Source: an uncultured bacterium (GTDB lineage Bacteria; Myxococcota_A; UBA9160; SMWR01). Taken from it: DNA of 35,591 nt. The translations under genes were made by a program, and so were the position numbers. The stretch spans positions 1 to 35,591 of the forward strand of contig CALDCK010000081.1 of the NCBI GenBank assembly GCA_937937315.1. The letters run 5' to 3'. This document shows, one piece after another, positions 12,883-21,793 of the stretch. The notes beneath the pieces are model-generated. The model was not told the origin of the DNA. It saw only the letters and a list, made by a program, of their open reading frames with translations, and did no database searches. Numbering within the stretch: position 1 is the first letter of the stretch; every line of letters begins with the position of its first letter.

Positions 12883-13845
12883 CTAGGCCAGTGCGCCGCC
12901 GCAGCTCGAGCCACTGCCGGCCGTGCAGCCGAAGCAGTGCCGATCCGTCGCGATTCCGGCGCCGCGAAGCTCCGACAGCGCCCCGATCTCCCAGATGCTG
13001 CGCTCTCCGTCGACCGGCGGAAGCTCCAGCATCTGATTGAAGTCGCAGTCGTAGAGGGCGCCGTCGTGGCCGACCGAAACCATGTGGCGGCACATGAGTC
13101 CGGGCACCGTGTCGACGTTGAAGTGATTCACCAGCAGCGAGAGATAGGCGGCATCACGCCCCTCGCGCTGGAGGGCGTTGGCGAAGCGCTTGATGGGCAT
13201 ATTGGTGATGGTCACCAGACGGTCGAACTCGATCGCGAAGAGCTCGCGTAGCTCGCTCCGGTAGGTGGCTTCGAGCTCGGCCTGGTCCGGCGGGAGGGTC
13301 GGGCCCAGGGGGTTGAAGACGAGGTCGAGCTCGAGTCCCCGGCCGCCGCCGTAACCGAGTCCATTGAGCTTGCGTAGAGCATCGATGCTGCGGGCGAATA
13401 CGTCGCGGCCGCGCTGCTGCTCGACGTTCTCCTTCGTGTAGCAGGGAAGGGACGCGACGACCTTCACCTTCTCCGCGGCCAGGAACTCGGCGGTGTCTTC
13501 CTGCCCCGGTTGGAAGAGGACGGTCAGGTTGCAGCGGTCGATCACCTGACGTCCGAGGGAGCGGGCGCCGCGCACCAGGTTCCGGAACTGCGCGTTCAGC
13601 TCCGGGGCTCCGCCGGTGAGGTCGAGGGTCCGGGTCTCCGGGCTGCCGGCGAGGAGGTCGATGACGCGGCCTGCGGTGGCCTCGTCCATCATCTCGGTTC
13701 GCAGGGGTCCCGCCTCGACGTGACAGTGGTGGCAGGCGAGATCGCAGCGCTTGCCGACGTTCACCTGCAGCGTCGAGACCCCGGTCCGGGAGAGCGCTCC
13801 GGCCCCGCGCTCGACGAGGGTCCGCTGGAAGTCGGGGGACGTCAT
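12883..13845 (-). CDS. arsS: Arsenosugar biosynthesis radical SAM protein ArsS-like (DUF3641, rSAM/Cys-rich)
   Basis: 320 aa. The radical SAM cluster motif CDLACHHC (Cys34, Cys38, Cys41) is followed by the TIM-barrel elements LDLTGGAPELN and KVKVVASLPCY. The DUF3641 C-terminal domain has GLMCRHMVSVG, LYDCDFNQML and the terminal HCFGCTAGSGSSCGG. This matches the ArsS/rSAM_SeCys family; in ArsS the enzyme forms the arsenic-carbon bond of dimethylarsinoyl ribosides. Some relatives carry selenocysteine in the last motif; here every position is a normal TGC Cys codon. ATG at 13845 overlaps the stop of the DUF3047 gene (ATGA). No arsM methyltransferase is in the window, so an arsenosugar role needs a partner elsewhere. 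Confidence 0.88.
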   Translation of the reverse strand: MTSPDFQRTLVERGAGALSRTGVSTLQVNVGKRCDLACHHCHVEAGPLRTEMMDEATAGRVIDLLAGSPETRTLDLTGGAPELNAQFRNLVRGARSLGRQVIDRCNLTVLFQPGQEDTAEFLAAEKVKVVASLPCYTKENVEQQRGRDVFARSIDALRKLNGLGYGGGRGLELDLVFNPLGPTLPPDQAELEATYRSELRELFAIEFDRLVTITNMPIKRFANALQREGRDAAYLSLLVNHFNVDTVPGLMCRHMVSVGHDGALYDCDFNQMLELPPVDGERSIWEIGALSELRGAGIATDRHCFGCTAGSGSSCGGALA

Positions 13846-14875: not shown

Positions 14876-15790
14876 ATGAGTGACATCCGCTTCGACGGCC
14901 GCGTCGCCGTCATCACCGGTGCCGGCGGCGGCCTCGGCAAGACCTACGCCCTCGACATGGCCGCGCGCGGTGCCAGCATCGTCGTGAACGATCTGGGCGG
15001 CGCCTCCGACGGAACCGGTGGCGGCAGCAGCATGGCGGATCAGACCGTCGAGGAGATCGGCGCGGCAGGCGGGAAGGCCGTCGCCAACTACGACTCGGTG
15101 GCGACCCCTGAGGGCGGCAAGGCCATCATCCAGACGGCTCTCGACAACTTCGGCAAGGTCGACATCCTGATCAACAACGCGGGCATCCTGCGCGACAAGA
15201 GCTTCCTCAAGCTCGAGCCCGAGAATCTCGAGGCCGTCATCGACGTCCACCTCAAGGGCGCGTTCTTCGTCACGCAGCCGGCCTTTGCCTCGATGAAGGA
15301 CAACGGCTACGGGCGGATCGTGATGGCGTCCTCCGGCGCTGGCATCTTCGGCAACTTCGGCCAGACCAACTACGGTGCGGCGAAGATGGGTCTCGTCGGG
15401 CTCATGAACGTGCTGGCCGTCGAGGGTGGGAAGTACGGCATCAAGGTCAACACCATCGCGCCGATCGCGAAGACGCGACTCACCGAGCAGCTCCTCGGAG
15501 GCCTCGCGGACGCCCTGGACCCGAGCTTCGTGACCCCCCTCGTCACCTACCTGGCCTCCGAGAAGTGCGAGCTGAGTCACGAGATCTTCGACGTCGGCGG
15601 AGGGCGCTATGCCCGTGTGTTCGTCGGAATGGCCCCGGGCTGGGTGGCGCCCGGTGGCAAGGTGCCGAAGGCGGAGGAAATCCTGGATCACATCGACGTG
15701 ATCCGGGCGCAGGAGGGCTACACCGTGCCCGATAGCATCGCCGACGAGACGAAGGCGGTCGTCGAGGCGCTGAAGGCCGCGCAGGCCTGA
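14876..15790 (+). CDS. MFE-2-type (R)-3-hydroxyacyl-CoA dehydrogenase (SDR)
   Basis: 304 aa SDR. The cofactor motif is TGAGGGLGKTYAL, with NNAG at INNAGILRDKSF, and the catalytic Tyr and Lys in NYGAAKMGLVGL. The combination VVNDLGG, GKAVANYDSV, NNAGILRDKSF and YGRIVMASS..GIFGNFGQ closely follows the dehydrogenase domain of eukaryotic peroxisomal multifunctional enzyme 2 (HSD17B4). The C-terminal 50 residues are an extension beyond the SDR core. It oxidises (R)-3-hydroxyacyl-CoA with NAD+. The partner hydratase-2 is the next gene, 9 nt away, so the eukaryotic fusion is present here as two genes. ATG at 14876 with AAGGAG upstream. Confidence 0.92.
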   Translation: MSDIRFDGRVAVITGAGGGLGKTYALDMAARGASIVVNDLGGASDGTGGGSSMADQTVEEIGAAGGKAVANYDSVATPEGGKAIIQTALDNFGKVDILINNAGILRDKSFLKLEPENLEAVIDVHLKGAFFVTQPAFASMKDNGYGRIVMASSGAGIFGNFGQTNYGAAKMGLVGLMNVLAVEGGKYGIKVNTIAPIAKTRLTEQLLGGLADALDPSFVTPLVTYLASEKCELSHEIFDVGGGRYARVFVGMAPGWVAPGGKVPKAEEILDHIDVIRAQEGYTVPDSIADETKAVVEALKAAQA

Positions 15791-15799
15791 GGAGGGACC

Positions 15800-16654
15800 A
15801 TGCCCATCGATCCGAGCAAGGCCCGCGGAGCGACCCTCCCGGAGTCGGAGACCTCATACACGAAGGACCAGGTGATCCTCTATCACCTCGGCGTGGGCGC
15901 CGGTGTGCCGCCCACCGACGCCGGAGAGCTGGAGTACACCTACGAGAAGAGTCTCAAGGTGCTCCCCAGCTTCGCCGTGATTCCGGCCTTCGGCTCGATG
16001 GGCGGGATCGGAAGCATCCCGGGGCTGGAGTTCAACCTGGCGATGCTGCTCCACGGTGAGCAGGAGGTGATCCTCCACAAGCCGCTTCCGCCGGAGCAGA
16101 AGCTAACGACCTCCGCCCACATCCCCGAGATCTACGACAAGGGGAAGGCCGCACTCGTCATCCTGGAGTCGACGGCCCGCGACGAGGCGGGCGATCCGCT
16201 GTTCACGAATCGCTTCTCGCTCTTCATCCGGGGCGAGGGGGGATTCGGCGGCGATTCCGGACCGAAGGCGGGGAATGCCGCGCCCGACCGGGCGCCCGAC
16301 GGAGTGGTCGAGTCGAAGACGCTGCCCCAGCAGGCCCTGATCTACCGCTTGTCGGGAGACAAGAACCCCCTCCACGCCGACCCGGAGTTCGCGAAGATGG
16401 CGGGCTTCGATCGCCCCATCATCCACGGGCTCTGCTCCTACGGGGTGGTGTGCAAGGCGGTCGTGGACGAGGTCCTCGGCGGTGACGTGACGCGAGTCGA
16501 GCGCTACCAGGCCCGGTTCGCGGGGGTGGGCTTCCCGGGAGAGACCTACCAGACCTCCTTCTGGAAGGAAGGGGAGAAGGTGCTGATCCAGGCGAAGAGC
16601 GTCGAGCGCGACGCGCCGATCATCACCAACGCCGCCATCACCCTGCGCAGCTGA
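15800..16654 (+). CDS. MFE-2-type enoyl-CoA hydratase 2, double hot-dog MaoC
   Basis: 284 aa, the size of the two-hot-dog hydratase 2 of MFE-2. The inactive N-terminal repeat (about residues 10-130) includes VIPAFGSMGGIGSIPG. The C-terminal repeat has the catalytic motif YRLSGDKNPLHADPEFAKMAG followed by FDRPIIHGLCSYG, with Asp and His in place. It hydrates trans-2-enoyl-CoA to (R)-3-hydroxyacyl-CoA, which the upstream SDR then oxidises, giving the two middle steps of an R-specific beta-oxidation, often for branched or steroid side chains. ATG at 15800 with GGAGGG just upstream. It ends 7 nt before the end of the convergent transporter operon. Confidence 0.93.
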   Translation: MPIDPSKARGATLPESETSYTKDQVILYHLGVGAGVPPTDAGELEYTYEKSLKVLPSFAVIPAFGSMGGIGSIPGLEFNLAMLLHGEQEVILHKPLPPEQKLTTSAHIPEIYDKGKAALVILESTARDEAGDPLFTNRFSLFIRGEGGFGGDSGPKAGNAAPDRAPDGVVESKTLPQQALIYRLSGDKNPLHADPEFAKMAGFDRPIIHGLCSYGVVCKAVVDEVLGGDVTRVERYQARFAGVGFPGETYQTSFWKEGEKVLIQAKSVERDAPIITNAAITLRS

Positions 16655-16661
16655 GCGCGGC

Positions 16662-18215
16662 TCAGTCCGATTCTTCTCGAACGAGTGAGAGGAGTCGCCG
16701 GGCCGCCTCGCCCGGCGACTCGCCCTCGCCGTCCACGAGCAGGTTCATGCGTCGCATCGTCGGCGCGTCGATGGCGCCGTCCAGCTCTCGCAGCGCCGTC
16801 GCCACCTCGGGCTGCTCCCGGAGCAGGCGGGGCCCGACCAGCACGATCGCATCGTAGGGCGGGATCACGCCGAGATCGTCCTCCAGCACGGCCAGGTCGA
16901 AGGCGGCGATCCTTCCGTCGGTGGAGAAGGCGCTGATCACGTCCACCTCTCCGTTCACGAGCGCACCGTACATGAGCGCCGGGTCCATGCTGCGCTCGGC
17001 ACCAAAGGCGAGGCCGTAGCGGCGCTCGAGGGCGCGCCACTCCTCGCGCTGGAAGAACTCGTAGTCGCCACCGATCTCGAGCCCCGTGGCCTTCCGGGCG
17101 AGGTCGGAGATGCGGCGCAGGGAGAGCGCCCGGGCATGCTCGGGGCGCATCGCCAGGGCGTAGGTGTTCTCGAAGCCGAGAGCGGCCGCGAGGGTCACGC
17201 CGTGCTCGGCCTCCAGGTATCGCCCCACCTCTCCCAGGACCTCCTGGCGCCGAGGCGGAAGACCCGGGCGCTTCATGATCGTGGCCCAGATCGTTCCCGA
17301 GTAGTCCACGTAGACGTCGATGTCGTCGTTTGCGAGGGCGTCGAAGGCGACGGTGGAGCCGAGGGAGGGAACGGCGCGGGTCGTCGCGCCGGTTCGGTCC
17401 TCGATCTGCCGCCCCAGCAGGTCTGCCAGGATGTACTGCTCGGTGAAGGTCTTCGAGCCGATGCGCACGATCGGCCCGGTGCGCTGCCACGGAAGAGCGA
17501 AGGTCGCGGCGGCATAGCCGAAGAGCAGCGCCAATCCCAGAGCGGCGCCGGCGGTCAGCGCGCGCCGGCGCTCCCGGACACCCACCTCGAGGGCGCGGAT
17601 CACGCCGTCGAGGACCAGGGCCAGTCCGGCGGCGGCGACGCAGCCCACCAGTACCGCCGTGTCGTTGCGGGTCGCGAGCCCGCTGAAGATGAAGTTGCCG
17701 AGGCTCGTCGCACCGATCGGCGTCGAGAGCGTCGCGGTGCCCACCACCCAGACGGTCGCCGTGCGCACGCCGGCGACGATGACCGGCGCGCCGAGGGGGA
17801 GCTCGACGCGGAGCAGCCGCTGGCCATCGGTCATTCCCACGCCGCGCGCTGCCTCCACCAGTGCCGGGTCCACGCTGCGAATTCCCTCGACGGTGTTGCG
17901 CAGCATCGGGAGCAGGCTGTAGAGCGAGAGCGCGATCAGGGCCGGCGCGTAGCCGATACTGCGCAGGTCGACGCCGAAGCGTGCGGTCAGGGCGCCCAGC
18001 GCCCCCAGTGCGGGGACCATGATCGCCAGCAGGGCGAGGCTGGGAACGGTCTGAATCACGCTGGCGACCCCGAGGATTCCGGGCTCGAGCCGAGGGCGTC
18101 GTGTGATCCAGATGCCGAGGGGGATGCTCACCCAGGCACCGATGGCGAGGGCTGCGAGGGAGAGCTGGAGGTGCGCGGTCAGGTAGCCGGGAAGGAGCTC
18201 GAGCTGCTCGCTCAT
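16662..18215 (-). CDS. Quaternary-amine-type ABC transporter: permease fused to substrate-binding protein (OpuCB-OpuCC / EgtU architecture)
   Basis: 517 aa. Residues 1-235 are a ProW/OpuCB permease with about six membrane helices and the EAA-like loop LVEAARGVGMTDGQRLLRVELPLGAP. From about residue 240 an extracytoplasmic binding domain begins (IVRIGSKTFTEQYILADLLG), with VPSLGSTVAFDALANDDIDVYVDYSGT and GALVNGEVDVISAFSTDGRI, both typical of the OpuCC/OsmF/ProX set. The same fused layout is used by betaine/choline systems and by the ergothioneine importer EgtU, so the ligand is undecided. ATG at 18215 overlaps the ATPase stop (ATGA). With the ATPase it forms a complete two-gene importer. Confidence 0.9.
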   Translation of the reverse strand: MSEQLELLPGYLTAHLQLSLAALAIGAWVSIPLGIWITRRPRLEPGILGVASVIQTVPSLALLAIMVPALGALGALTARFGVDLRSIGYAPALIALSLYSLLPMLRNTVEGIRSVDPALVEAARGVGMTDGQRLLRVELPLGAPVIVAGVRTATVWVVGTATLSTPIGATSLGNFIFSGLATRNDTAVLVGCVAAAGLALVLDGVIRALEVGVRERRRALTAGAALGLALLFGYAAATFALPWQRTGPIVRIGSKTFTEQYILADLLGRQIEDRTGATTRAVPSLGSTVAFDALANDDIDVYVDYSGTIWATIMKRPGLPPRRQEVLGEVGRYLEAEHGVTLAAALGFENTYALAMRPEHARALSLRRISDLARKATGLEIGGDYEFFQREEWRALERRYGLAFGAERSMDPALMYGALVNGEVDVISAFSTDGRIAAFDLAVLEDDLGVIPPYDAIVLVGPRLLREQPEVATALRELDGAIDAPTMRRMNLLVDGEGESPGEAARRLLSLVREESD

Positions 18216-18976
18216 TCGCTACCGGCTCCGAGGGCGCGGGCCGCCGCCGCACGTCGCAGGGGGGTCTGCAAGAGCTCGGCCACGTAGTCGTTCGCCGGCT
18301 CTTCCACCAGCTCCGCCGGGGTGCCGACCTGGGCCAGGCGCCCCGCCTGAAGGACGGCGATGCGGTCGCCCAGGATCATCGCCTCCACGACGTCGTGGGT
18401 CACGAAGAGCGCCGTCAGCCCGAGCTCCGCGCGGATGCGGCGAAACGACCCCTGGAGACGGTCGCGAATCAGCGGGTCGAGGGCGCCGAAGGGCTCGTCG
18501 AGGAGCATCACATCGGGCTCGGCGGCCAGGGCGCGGGCGAGCCCCACCCGCTGCTGCTGCCCACCCGACAGAGCGGTGGGCAGGCGATCGTGGAACTCCG
18601 ACGCCGGGAGCTCCACGAGCTCGAGCAGCGTCTCCACCCGTCGCCGGATGCGGCCCTCGTCCCAACCGAGGAGCGAAGGGGTGATCGCCACGTTCTCCGC
18701 GACGGTCATGTGGGGGAAGAGCCCGATCTCCTGGAAGCAGTAGCCGATGTTCCGCCGCAGCAGGGGACCCGAGGTATCCCGCGTATCCCTTCCGGCGATC
18801 CGGACGCGACCCGACGTCGGCTCGATCAACCGGTTCACCATCTTCAGCGTCGTGGTCTTGCCGCTTCCGGATCCACCGAGCAGGACGAGGAGCTCGCCCT
18901 GGGCGATGGAGAGGGAGAGGTTCTCGACCACCGCGTCGGTGTCATAGCGCTTCGTCAGCGACTCGATCTCGATCAC
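18212..18976 (-). CDS. ABC transporter ATP-binding protein, ProV/OpuCA-like without CBS domains
   Basis: 254 aa. Walker A is GGSGSGKTT, Q-loop YCFQEIGLFPHMTV, ABC signature LSGGQQQR, Walker B VMLLDEPFGALDP, and switch His in FVTHDVVEA. The region NRLIEPTSGRV and the PHMTVAEN loop are as in ProV/OpuCA. The C-terminal CBS pair that senses ionic strength in OpuA/OpuC is missing, so this form may not be osmotically gated, which fits other substrates as well. The GTG at 18976 overlaps the stop of the glycosyltransferase gene (GTGA). It pairs with the fused permease-binding protein that overlaps its 3' end. Confidence 0.92.
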   Translation of the reverse strand: MIEIESLTKRYDTDAVVENLSLSIAQGELLVLLGGSGSGKTTTLKMVNRLIEPTSGRVRIAGRDTRDTSGPLLRRNIGYCFQEIGLFPHMTVAENVAITPSLLGWDEGRIRRRVETLLELVELPASEFHDRLPTALSGGQQQRVGLARALAAEPDVMLLDEPFGALDPLIRDRLQGSFRRIRAELGLTALFVTHDVVEAMILGDRIAVLQAGRLAQVGTPAELVEEPANDYVAELLQTPLRRAAAARALGAGSE

Positions 18977-19755
18977 TGGCGGTCCATGAGCCAGAGCTTC
19001 GCGTAGCGCAGGCGCACGTAGTGGGCGGCCAGATAGGCCAGCAGAAGTCCGCGCCAGCCGTCCAGGAAGCCGCGTCGCCACACGTAGAAGTCGAAGAAAC
19101 GCAGGGGAGGGCGCAGTACCAGGTCCAGCAGGCGGGCCCGTCGCCCATCTGCGTGGAGCTCTCCGGCCATGATGCTGCTGTAGCGATCGATCGTGGCGAG
19201 GTGGTCCTCGAAGGTCCGGTAGGGATCGTGTCGGAGCTCTCCCGTGAGGTCGCAGACGTCGCCGGAGAGCTCCACCCGGTCGTGAGGGTCGCGCCCGCCC
19301 CAGCGACCGCGTCTTCGATCGAAGAGCCGGAGCTTGCGGTCGGGATACCAGGTGCCATGCCGGATCCAGCGCCCCAGATACGAAGAGACGCGAGGCACGG
19401 AGAATCCGGCGGCGTCCTCGAAATGTCGATCGCGCGCGGCGGCGATCTGCTCCGCCAGCTCCGGCGACACGCGCTCGTCGGCGTCGATGCAGAACACCCA
19501 GTCGTGTTCCGCTGCGCGGATCGCGAACTCCTTCTGGGCCACGTGGCCCGGCCAGTCCCGCTCGATCACCCGCGCACCGGCGGCTGCCGCGACCTCCCGG
19601 GTGCGGTCGTTGGAGTGGGAATCCACGACCAGCATCTCGTCGCACCAGTCGAGCGAGGCGAGGCAGTCCGGGAGGCGATCCTCCTCGTCACGCGTGACGA
19701 TGCACGCGCTGATGCGCGTTCGATCCGCCGTGGGCCCGTCGGCCGCGGAGCGCAC
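18973..19755 (-). CDS. Family 2 glycosyltransferase, WaaE/KdtX-like (LPS core)
   Basis: 260 aa GT-A glycosyltransferase. N-terminal ISACIVTRDEEDRLPDCLASL, then DEMLVVDSHSNDRT and the metal-binding DAD/DADE element in FCIDADERVSPEL. The C-terminal part (SSYLGRWIRHGTWYPDRKLRLF, then DPHDRVEL and EDHLATIDRYSSIMAGE) matches the WaaE-like lipopolysaccharide core beta-1,4-glucosyltransferase group. A hydrophobic amphipathic tail near residue 235 may bind the inner membrane. The GTG at 19755 sits 4 nt after the stop of the 164-aa gene. It is locked by overlaps into an operon with the ABC importer, an unusual setting; LPS or another surface glycolipid is the likely acceptor. Confidence 0.87.
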   Translation of the reverse strand: MRSAADGPTADRTRISACIVTRDEEDRLPDCLASLDWCDEMLVVDSHSNDRTREVAAAAGARVIERDWPGHVAQKEFAIRAAEHDWVFCIDADERVSPELAEQIAAARDRHFEDAAGFSVPRVSSYLGRWIRHGTWYPDRKLRLFDRRRGRWGGRDPHDRVELSGDVCDLTGELRHDPYRTFEDHLATIDRYSSIMAGELHADGRRARLLDLVLRPPLRFFDFYVWRRGFLDGWRGLLLAYLAAHYVRLRYAKLWLMDRQ

Positions 19756-19759
19756 GGGG

Positions 19760-20254
19760 TCAGTCCGTCCCCGCGCCCCCGCCCGACAGGCGTGCCTCGA
19801 GCGCCGGCCAATCCACCACCTGCTGGGCCGCGAAGGCCCGCAGCAGCAGATCCCGATCCTCGTCGTCGTCGGTGGCCAGGAACTCGTCGACGGCCTTCTC
19901 GAGCACCTCCGGTGCCGGCTCTGCGGGCGCGTCGTCCTCGAGGGTCCCGTCCTCGTGGGCGAGGCCGACGCCATCGAGCCAGGCGGTCAGCAGGTCCTTG
20001 CGGCACTCGAGGAAGTAGACGGCGAGGAGCTCGTCGGCCACCGGGTTCGCGATCACCCGGGCGAGGGAGCGTCGCACCGCTTCGGCGCGCTTCTCGAAGG
20101 GCTGGCGGCGCATGTAGACCGGCCGTGCCTTGATCGAGATGGCCGCAGCGTCCACCGCCTGGCGGAACATCCCCGGTGACTCCTTCGATAGGCGCCGCAT
20201 CATCGTGACGGCGCGTTCGGGCTTCATGGCGCCGAAGACCTGGTACGAGCGCAT
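19760..20254 (-). CDS. Conserved-looking protein of unknown function, 164 aa
   Basis: I do not recognise this family. The N-terminus (MRSYQVFGAMKPERAVTMMR) resembles neither a signal peptide nor a membrane anchor, and the protein appears cytosolic and helical. It has a basic first half (MMRRLSKESPGMFRQAV, SIKARPVYMRRQP) and a very acidic middle (HEDGTLEDDAPAEPAPEV, ATDDDEDRD). The ATG at 20254 has GGGAGGTGG just upstream, so it is well expressed from its own site. It lies 46 nt after heme A synthase and 4 nt before the glycosyltransferase, heading the coupled four-gene set with the transporter. Codon use is like the neighbours. Confidence 0.7.
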   Translation of the reverse strand: MRSYQVFGAMKPERAVTMMRRLSKESPGMFRQAVDAAAISIKARPVYMRRQPFEKRAEAVRRSLARVIANPVADELLAVYFLECRKDLLTAWLDGVGLAHEDGTLEDDAPAEPAPEVLEKAVDEFLATDDDEDRDLLLRAFAAQQVVDWPALEARLSGGGAGTD

Positions 20255-20300
20255 TCCACCTCCCTTGCGCTTCTAGCATCGCGCGCCGGAGCGGCCCGCG

Positions 20301-21245
20301 CTAGGAGGGCTCGTGGGTCGATCTCGCGCCCCGGGGACGGGGTTCGCGGCGCCAGGCGGCTTCGGTCGCGGCGCCGAGGGTCAGGACGAGGGCCGTGGCC
20401 AGGGCCGAGTGCAGCCCCGTCACCTCTACCGGAATTCCGAACAGGACGTTGGCGATGCCGACGCCCATCTGCGCGAAGACCAGCACGGCCGCGAGGGTGG
20501 TGGCGGGCCGCACCGCGGACTCGGAGCGACCGAAGAAGGCCGTCGCGGCAATGGCGCCGACCACGAGCACGGCATTCCAGCGGTGGAGCAGGTGGAGACC
20601 CACCGTCCCGCGCCAGGTGGGGAACCACACGCCGCCGTTGCACGCGGGCCACTCCGGGCAGGTGAGTCCGGCGAAGCGCGATGAGACGAGCCCACCGAGC
20701 ACGAGCTGTGCGAGGAGCAGCACGCCCGCGACTCCGAGCCAGACGCGCAGGCGCGCCGGAGCGCGAGGGCCCTCGGACACCTCGTCGCCGCGTCGCAGCG
20801 AGAGAGCAATGAACAGGAGGGACAGGGCGAAGGCGTTCCCCGTGATCAGGTGGGAGGTAACGCTCCAGGCCGCCAGCAGCTGCCAGACGGTGAGGGCGCC
20901 CAGGAGGACCTGAAGGGCGAGCAGTGCGCCGGCGAGCAGCACGAGGCGTCGGGATCCGGGAGACGTGTCGTGGCGTCGCAGTGCGATCGTCGCCAGTGCG
21001 ACGAAGCCGAGGGAGATGGCGCCGGCCAGCACGCGGTGGGACCATTCGAAGCCGACCTTGAGGTTCATCTCCGGAACGAAGCGACCGAAGCAGAGCGGCC
21101 AGTCGGGACAGGCGAGACCGGCTTCGTGTGCGCGTACCAGGGCACCCAGCACGATCAGGCAGAACGTCGGCACCAGCAGGGCGACGAAGGCCGTCGCCAG
21201 GGCCCTCGCTCCGCTGCCGGCTGCTCCGGAAGGATGGGTATTCAC
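20301..21245 (-). CDS. ctaA: Heme A synthase (CtaA/COX15)
   Basis: 314 aa, about eight membrane helices. It has the family landmarks: LVRAHEAGLACPDWPLCFG with a conserved Cys and His, FEWSHRVLAG with a heme-ligand His, WSVTSHLITGN, LTCPEWPACNG with the second-half Cys, LHLLHRWNAVL and TGLHSALATAL. The two halves repeat the HEAGL/CPDWP pattern, as in COX15. It converts heme O to heme A for aa3-type oxidases, so the organism respires oxygen. The GTG at 21245 has GGAGAG upstream. No ctaB or oxidase genes are adjacent. It is the first gene of a five-gene minus-strand run. Confidence 0.93.
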   Translation of the reverse strand: MNTHPSGAAGSGARALATAFVALLVPTFCLIVLGALVRAHEAGLACPDWPLCFGRFVPEMNLKVGFEWSHRVLAGAISLGFVALATIALRRHDTSPGSRRLVLLAGALLALQVLLGALTVWQLLAAWSVTSHLITGNAFALSLLFIALSLRRGDEVSEGPRAPARLRVWLGVAGVLLLAQLVLGGLVSSRFAGLTCPEWPACNGGVWFPTWRGTVGLHLLHRWNAVLVVGAIAATAFFGRSESAVRPATTLAAVLVFAQMGVGIANVLFGIPVEVTGLHSALATALVLTLGAATEAAWRREPRPRGARSTHEPS

Positions 21246-21335
21246 GGACGCTCTCCGCGGGTGGAGGGTGGCAGACCCTACGCCATGACCCCCGATGCGA
21301 CAACGAGAGGGCTCGGGGATCGTGGTGGCGCCCCC

Positions 21336-21364
21336 TTCAGATTTGGCCCGGTTTCGACGATACT
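21336..21364 (+). promoter_or_regulatory. Promoter placing the next start codon at the 5' end of the transcript
   Basis: TTCAGA (21336-21341), a 17-nt spacer and GATACT (21359-21364). The GTG start of the following gene is at 21371, where transcription would begin, so the message may be leaderless. The G run between is too close to act as a normal ribosome site. Confidence 0.4.
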
Positions 21365-21370
21365 GGGGGG

Positions 21371-21793
21371 GTGTCGGAACTGCCCCTCGATCGCTTCGTC
21401 CTCGATGATCCGCGCCGGCTGCGCGAGCTCCTGGCGCGCGCACGGGGCCTCGCTTCGCAGCATTCGCTGACCTCGGTTCTCGTCGGCATCGCGGGCTTCG
21501 AAGGGGATCCGGTCTTCAGCGAGGTCGTCGACTTCGTGGAGAGTGCACTGCGGGTGGACGACTCGGTCTTTCGCATGACCCGCGACCGCGTGGTCCTGCT
21601 GCTCACCGACGTGGACGAGGCGGGCGCGCGGCACGTGATCGGGCGCATCCTCGACGACTTCCGCGAGCACTTCCCCGGGCCGGTGGATCCCACCCTCTCC
21701 CTGGGATTCTTCGAGGTCTCGGAGCGATCCGGCGAGGTCACCGCCAAGGACGTGCTTCCCGGGCTCTTCACGGTGGCGCTTCCCTGCCACTGA
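21371..21793 (+). CDS. Small GGDEF-like (degenerate nucleotidyl cyclase fold) protein
   Basis: 140 aa. The middle reads like the core of a GGDEF domain: VDDSVFRMTRDRVVLLLTDVDEAGARHVIGRILDDF, where a diguanylate cyclase would have R.GGDEF.VLLP.t....A..v..ri. Here the GGDEF loop is TRDRV and the upstream metal Asp is not evident, so cyclase activity is unlikely. No receiver, PAS or membrane segment is attached. It may bind a nucleotide or act as a scaffold. GTG start at 21371, divergent from ctaA and convergent with the TIGR01777 gene (6-nt gap). Family call is moderate. Confidence 0.6.
   Translation: MSELPLDRFVLDDPRRLRELLARARGLASQHSLTSVLVGIAGFEGDPVFSEVVDFVESALRVDDSVFRMTRDRVVLLLTDVDEAGARHVIGRILDDFREHFPGPVDPTLSLGFFEVSERSGEVTAKDVLPGLFTVALPCH

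Follow-up and report, generated by a model that had tools for sequence, protein, structure and literature searches.

A putative LPS-core glycosyltransferase gene and a betaine-type importer packed behind ctaA and a conserved small gene in an uncultured bacterium

The window, the whole stretch of 35,591 nucleotides that was analyzed, is contig C81 of a metagenome-assembled genome (G000; 4.26 Mb in 486 contigs, 84.5% complete). The genes and features under study are listed in Table 1. As reported in the initial annotation and confirmed here by reading the junctions from the sequence, the TGA stop codon of u164 is followed after 4 nt by the GTG start of the glycosyltransferase gene, the glycosyltransferase and ATPase genes share a GTGA overlap, and the ATPase gene and the gene for the permease-binding protein fusion share an ATGA overlap. 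Codon-usage gene calling returned the identical four genes at identical coordinates. The ctaA gene ends 46 nt upstream of u164 on the same strand, and no sigma-70 promoter-like or terminator-like sites were found within 16400-21500, which is a weak test in GC-rich DNA. The glycosyltransferase and importer genes point the same way and are joined by 4-nt overlaps, which makes it probable that they share a transcript starting upstream of ctaA or of u164. The same four genes, with both 4-nt overlaps, lie inside a 377-kb contig of another genome (G004), and a third genome (G012) has u164, the glycosyltransferase gene and the start of the ATPase gene before its contig ends, with the 4-nt overlap between the latter two kept. 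Since these two genomes carry the same order (G012 up to its contig end), the row is not an artifact of a single assembled genome.

Table 1. Features at the locus and the matches on which their names are based
Feature	Positions	Strand	Remarks
Permease + substrate-binding fusion, OpuF-type	16662..18215	-	BPD_transp_1 at residues 31-214 (80 bits), OpuAC at residues 250-508 (172 bits)
ABC ATPase, ProV-like, of a betaine importer	18212..18976	-	PF00005, 131 bits
GT2 glycosyltransferase, LPS-core (WaaE-like) type	18973..19755	-	PF00535, 69 bits; GTG start; IDADER motif
u164, 164-aa ORF	19760..20254	-	also found by codon-usage gene calling; without named family; anchor of the locus
GGAGG, Shine-Dalgarno-like	20259..20263	-	just before the ATG of u164; read from sequence
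CtaA/COX15 heme A synthase	20301..21245	-	PF02628, 153 bits; upstream of u164; start codon uncertain
SDR	14876-15790	+	with MaoC, converges on the slot and marks its far edge
MaoC	15800-16654	+	with SDR, converges on the slot and marks its far edge

Of 90 searched genomes of the class, which is UBA9160 in the GTDB scheme, 87 encode u164, in single copy apart from G041 with its additional partial copy; outside the class, weak and mostly partial matches were present in 16 of 287 phylum genomes (best E 8e-13). The 72 named u164 loci belong mostly to metagenome-assembled genomes labelled Myxococcota, Myxococcales, Deltaproteobacteria or Proteobacteria, including the isolates UBA9160 and UBA4427; Geobacter, Spirochaeta and Gemmatimonadota occur as labels of single loci. 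On the strand of u164, CtaA is encoded no more than 3 kb upstream in 46 of these loci and no more than 300 nt upstream in 38; downstream, an SDR or MaoC relative in convergent orientation is found within 3 kb in 33. Within the same distance downstream, the glycosyltransferase is found in five loci and the importer in two, never both; the downstream sequence exceeds 1 kb in 66 of the 72 loci, that of G012 ends soon after the glycosyltransferase gene, and G004 is not among them.

Several observations concern the surroundings and relatives of u164. In the window, positions 21371-21793 encode a 140-residue protein of cluster c2 with no Pfam match at E 1e-5, and 57 of the 72 named loci have a c2 relative on the opposite strand no more than 3 kb upstream of u164. 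At two loci of family f7 (L133:6001-8334 and L132:1093-3231), the CtaA protein encoded upstream of u164 carries a fused domain resembling type II NADH dehydrogenase (COX15-CtaA + Pyr_redox_2 + NDH2_C). In three distant carriers (L248, L249 and L251), u164 follows genes that resemble those for glutamine synthetase and aldehyde dehydrogenase, named by Pfam in L248 and by eye from similar starts in L249 and L251. Weak relatives occur in other Myxococcota as part of a 923-residue frame (L299:2610-5381) or as small proteins (L302:4535-5089 and L305:4430-4978, the latter adjoining a TPR gene).

For the u164 protein of the window, neither Pfam nor NCBIfam gave a match at E 0.01 or below, the best Pfam score being 15.1 bits against a cut-off of 27. 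Among 38 members scanned, the best Pfam and NCBIfam matches (E 0.0025 and 0.0091) were each limited to one member; the alignment of these proteins has 38 rows, with the G017 protein present twice (L050 and L118). TilS, the most widespread weak match, was found in 5 of the 38 proteins at a best E of 0.023 and was rejected, as was aminopeptidase N, whose best E of 0.049 in a PDB profile search we took as chance. An AF2 model of u164 is all-helical with a mean pLDDT of 93. A Foldseek search of this model against the PDB returned 29 rows, of which even the best (E 3.1) fell short of the E 0.001 threshold, and a VIA-align comparison with 133 Foldseek chains gave a best Z of 3.9 over 62 residues.

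The stretch between u164 and the convergent SDR/MaoC pair, which we call the slot, was compared across 17 family genomes. Both the glycosyltransferase and the importer occupy it in G000 and G004, and in G012 it holds the glycosyltransferase gene and the ATPase start at the contig end. The glycosyltransferase is alone in G003 and G011, lies at a contig end in G008, and is fused to an LpxL domain in G001; the importer is present with no glycosyltransferase in G007 and G009; neither is present in seven genomes (G002, G005, G006, G010, G014, G015 and G016), and the slot of G013 gave no clear call. In a quick tree of up to 14 joined proteins (LG+G4), G000, G003, G009, G004 and G012 group together with an SH-aLRT value of 100, and within this group the slot of G003 has no importer (a distant one is encoded elsewhere) and that of G009 no glycosyltransferase. 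The first reading of the row as locked in an operon does not survive this comparison, since among the 16 other family members the order is kept in one (G004), not kept in 12 and not callable in three (G008, G012 and G013). Its statement that these genes are not a standard set holds, the full row being present in 2 of 97 genomes with one further row cut by a contig end. A literature search for betaine and glycosyltransferase in the same operon gave no match, and we do not claim the row as undescribed. Because the glycosyltransferase and the importer are kept or lost separately in relatives, the row resembles a shared position more than a new joint machine. The conserved backbone near the slot also includes a gene for an ArsS-type radical SAM protein (12883-13845 of the window; TIGR04167, 413 bits against a cut-off of 300).

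In Pfam and NCBIfam, only generic GT2 models match the glycosyltransferase (Glycos_transf_2, 69 bits), no WaaE model is among the matches, and the PDB matches are remote only, so that its identity is decided by genomic context. SpoT adjoins the gene in 16 of 20 fetched homolog neighborhoods, and a GT4 gene flanks it on the other side in 13 of these 16, typically with a heptose-7-phosphate kinase and an MsbA-like gene nearby. The heptose kinase of the window genome passes TIGR02198 (360 against a cut-off of 345), and the LPS locus of G044 encodes a heptosyltransferase II above the TIGR02195 cut-off. In G001, the slot glycosyltransferase is fused to a Lip_A_acyltrans domain (PF03279, 175 bits; L100:8111-9859). 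At the window genome's own LPS locus, domain scans identified the heptose kinase, SpoT, GT4 and the ABC domains; the genes that we take to be Gmk, RpoZ, YicC and MsbA were named by eye. Given these neighborhoods, the most likely reaction of the glycosyltransferase is transfer of a hexose to the inner core of LPS.

In a tree of 35 glycosyltransferases, for which 34 of the 69 genomes matching at E 1e-15 supplied the proteins, all seven slot proteins fall with those of G017 and G044 in one clade (clade I, 100/100), and most of the proteins outside this clade are linked to SpoT. The clade I genes of G017 and G044 adjoin a GT4 gene of one cluster, in G044 together with a Kdo/WaaP kinase gene. The window genome's own LPS locus (G000:C181) consists of the heptose kinase gene, then spoT, a gap of 50 nt, the GT4 gene and the MsbA-like gene, with no GT2 gene between spoT and the GT4 gene. 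A GT2 gene is likewise missing beside spoT in G003, G004, G011, G012, G017 and G044, the region is cut by a contig end in G008, and G001 has one GT2 gene at its LPS locus and another in the slot, which counts against the reading preferred below. A GT4 gene lies next to spoT or a SpoT-linked GT2 gene in 8 of 9 genomes with the GT2 gene and 0 of 4 without it (p 0.007, kinship ignored; counts made by eye, with 6 of 19 genomes left out because of contig-end cuts or unfetched loci). The missing GT2 gene at the window genome's own LPS locus suggests displacement, and since the SpoT sides of most clade I genomes have no GT2 gene, the clade I enzyme most likely takes the place of the one from the LPS locus.

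The importer genes form a compact unit, as a relative of the ATPase adjoins a fused permease in 39 of 42 genomes and, where neighborhoods were fetched, this unit has different neighbors in other families. The ATPase scores 283 bits against TIGR01186, below the cut-off of 326.6. For the binding domain, the closest solved sequence is that of Archaeoglobus fulgidus ProX (AfProX, 1sw1; 171 bits). The window protein keeps Lys255, Thr308, Tyr352, Glu386, Arg390 and Tyr454 and has Phe430 in the place of ProX Tyr190; most of the ProX site numbers were placed by alignment to 1sw1. The aromatic cage and the carboxylate-binding residues of subcluster F-III (Lys, Thr, Arg, three Tyr and, in the window, one Phe) are thus present. 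The importer tree and alignment contain 34 proteins from the 42 genomes with a fused importer, 33 of them complete and one partial (importers are cut at contig ends in G008 and G059, of which only G008 is in the tree). The Lys, Thr, Arg and three Tyr of the site are identical in all 33 complete proteins, among which the Tyr190 place holds Phe or Tyr and the Glu145 place deviates in three. The most likely predicted substrates, which would enter via the fused binding domain, are glycine betaine, proline betaine or DMSP-like osmolytes. In three family f5 genomes (L149:9260-9826, L150:9362-9955 and L157:8978-9580), the importer ATPase gene shares a 4-nt overlap with a gene of one cluster, which Pfam identifies as ChaC in L149; this gene is another partner coupled to the same importer.

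The part names given in the initial annotation, an LPS-type glycosyltransferase and a quaternary-amine importer, mostly stand, and the common purpose drawn from their tight coupling does not, as each of the two is found in the slot alone and they are unlinked outside the family. Its proposal that a glycolipid is decorated with the imported amine found no evidence, because the importer has a binding site of the ordinary betaine-binding type. Based on the above gene order, homology, site residues and distribution, we consider it quite probable that an LPS-core glycosyltransferase and a betaine importer are packed behind ctaA and u164 with no joint function needed.

A different reading is that the import of osmolytes is co-regulated with glycosylation of the LPS core as a single envelope response to salt, either in the lineage that includes G000, G004 and G012 or, at an earlier time, throughout the family. 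The tight overlaps, which are conserved in two genera, speak for such an operon, as does the positive co-occurrence across genomes, with the glycosyltransferase present in 37 of 42 importer genomes and 32 of 55 genomes without the importer (p 0.0014, kinship ignored). In addition, an AU test on the importer tree, the backbone of which is unresolved, did not reject a single origin of the slot importers (p-AU 0.246), and the four-gene row may therefore be ancestral, having lost parts; in that case too, each part could be dispensed with on its own. However, G003 and G009, which group with the three genomes of this lineage, each have one part without the other in the slot, and co-occurrence within the family is not significant (p 0.62). 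Although 37 genomes contain both the fused importer and the glycosyltransferase, the two share a contig only in G000 and G004, and in the 35 such genomes outside the family they are never on one contig. Also outside the family, the importer and u164 never share a contig, and the glycosyltransferase and u164 do so only in G017, 1.6 Mb apart (tables compared by eye). A kin-aware co-occurrence test on 47 genomes had no power, as it yielded 5 pairs when starred branches were used and 13 with all branches. We consider a functional operon unlikely, and view with still more doubt a version in which the inner-core glycosyltransferase gene moved onto the transcript of a betaine/DMSP importer, so that core structure would be tuned with osmolyte uptake and u164 might be a sensing or gating switch.

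The frequent position of CtaA upstream of u164 would fit an accessory role of u164 in the assembly of CtaA or heme-copper oxidase, with the other genes of the row as bystanders. This proposal, to which we give a small probability, has to account for seven class genomes that contain u164 but no CtaA match at E 1e-15, for loci without ctaA in which u164 still adjoins c2 and SDR/MaoC, and for family f12, where u164 is in a different gene context. Finally, the importer could take up ergothioneine and the row serve oxidative defense, given that EgtU is also a permease fused to a binding domain and that EgtUC is among the PDB matches at about 126 bits. AfProX scores higher, and according to PMC9732360, EgtU and ProX are told apart by three residues, which in EgtU are Gly244, Phe293 and Tyr337 (SpEgtU numbering). 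At these places, the window protein has Phe257, Tyr305 and Phe348, all of ProX type, and Phe, Tyr and Phe are found in 33 of 33 complete proteins, the window included. On these residues we rejected ergothioneine as the substrate, and the oxidative-defense reading of the row is very improbable.

In the preferred reading, in which the four genes share a position, u164 is a core gene of the class, often behind ctaA, and the slot between it and SDR/MaoC has a content that changes from one family member to another. In the window lineage, this slot holds a probable inner-core LPS glycosyltransferase gene, which may have left the SpoT-GT4-MsbA locus or taken over from the gene there, together with a two-gene OpuF-type importer. 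The locus illustrates that overlap-coupled rows in uncultured bacteria can mislead, since the parts are ordinary and are gained and lost separately in relatives. The useful by-product and most interesting leftover of the analysis is u164, which is nearly universal in its class and unrecognized by the family libraries used.

For the glycosyltransferase, the nearest named function would be that of WaaE, described in PMC5372535 as the heptose I beta-1,4-glucosyltransferase. Both are single-domain GT2 proteins with an aspartate motif and both have homologs in an LPS heptose/core locus, but the neighbors here are SpoT, GT4 and an MsbA-like gene, whereas the order in Aeromonas is waaF-waaE-wahF-waaA. 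The importer resembles OpuF, a fused form with betaine or DMSP as substrates according to PMC8060640, in combining an ATPase gene with a permease fused to a binding domain that has an aromatic cage. It differs in that OpuF is from Bacillus and the window importer is from a Myxococcota-type assembled genome, and in that the window site is AfProX-like with Phe in place of Tyr190. In comparison with EgtU, the fused architecture is the same, but the window importer lacks all three residues given as diagnostic in PMC9732360. With AfProX, it shares Lys13, Phe15, Tyr63, Thr66, Phe107, Tyr111, Glu145, Arg149 and Tyr214, and it differs from this protein in the change of Tyr190 to Phe and in the fusion of its binding domain to the permease.
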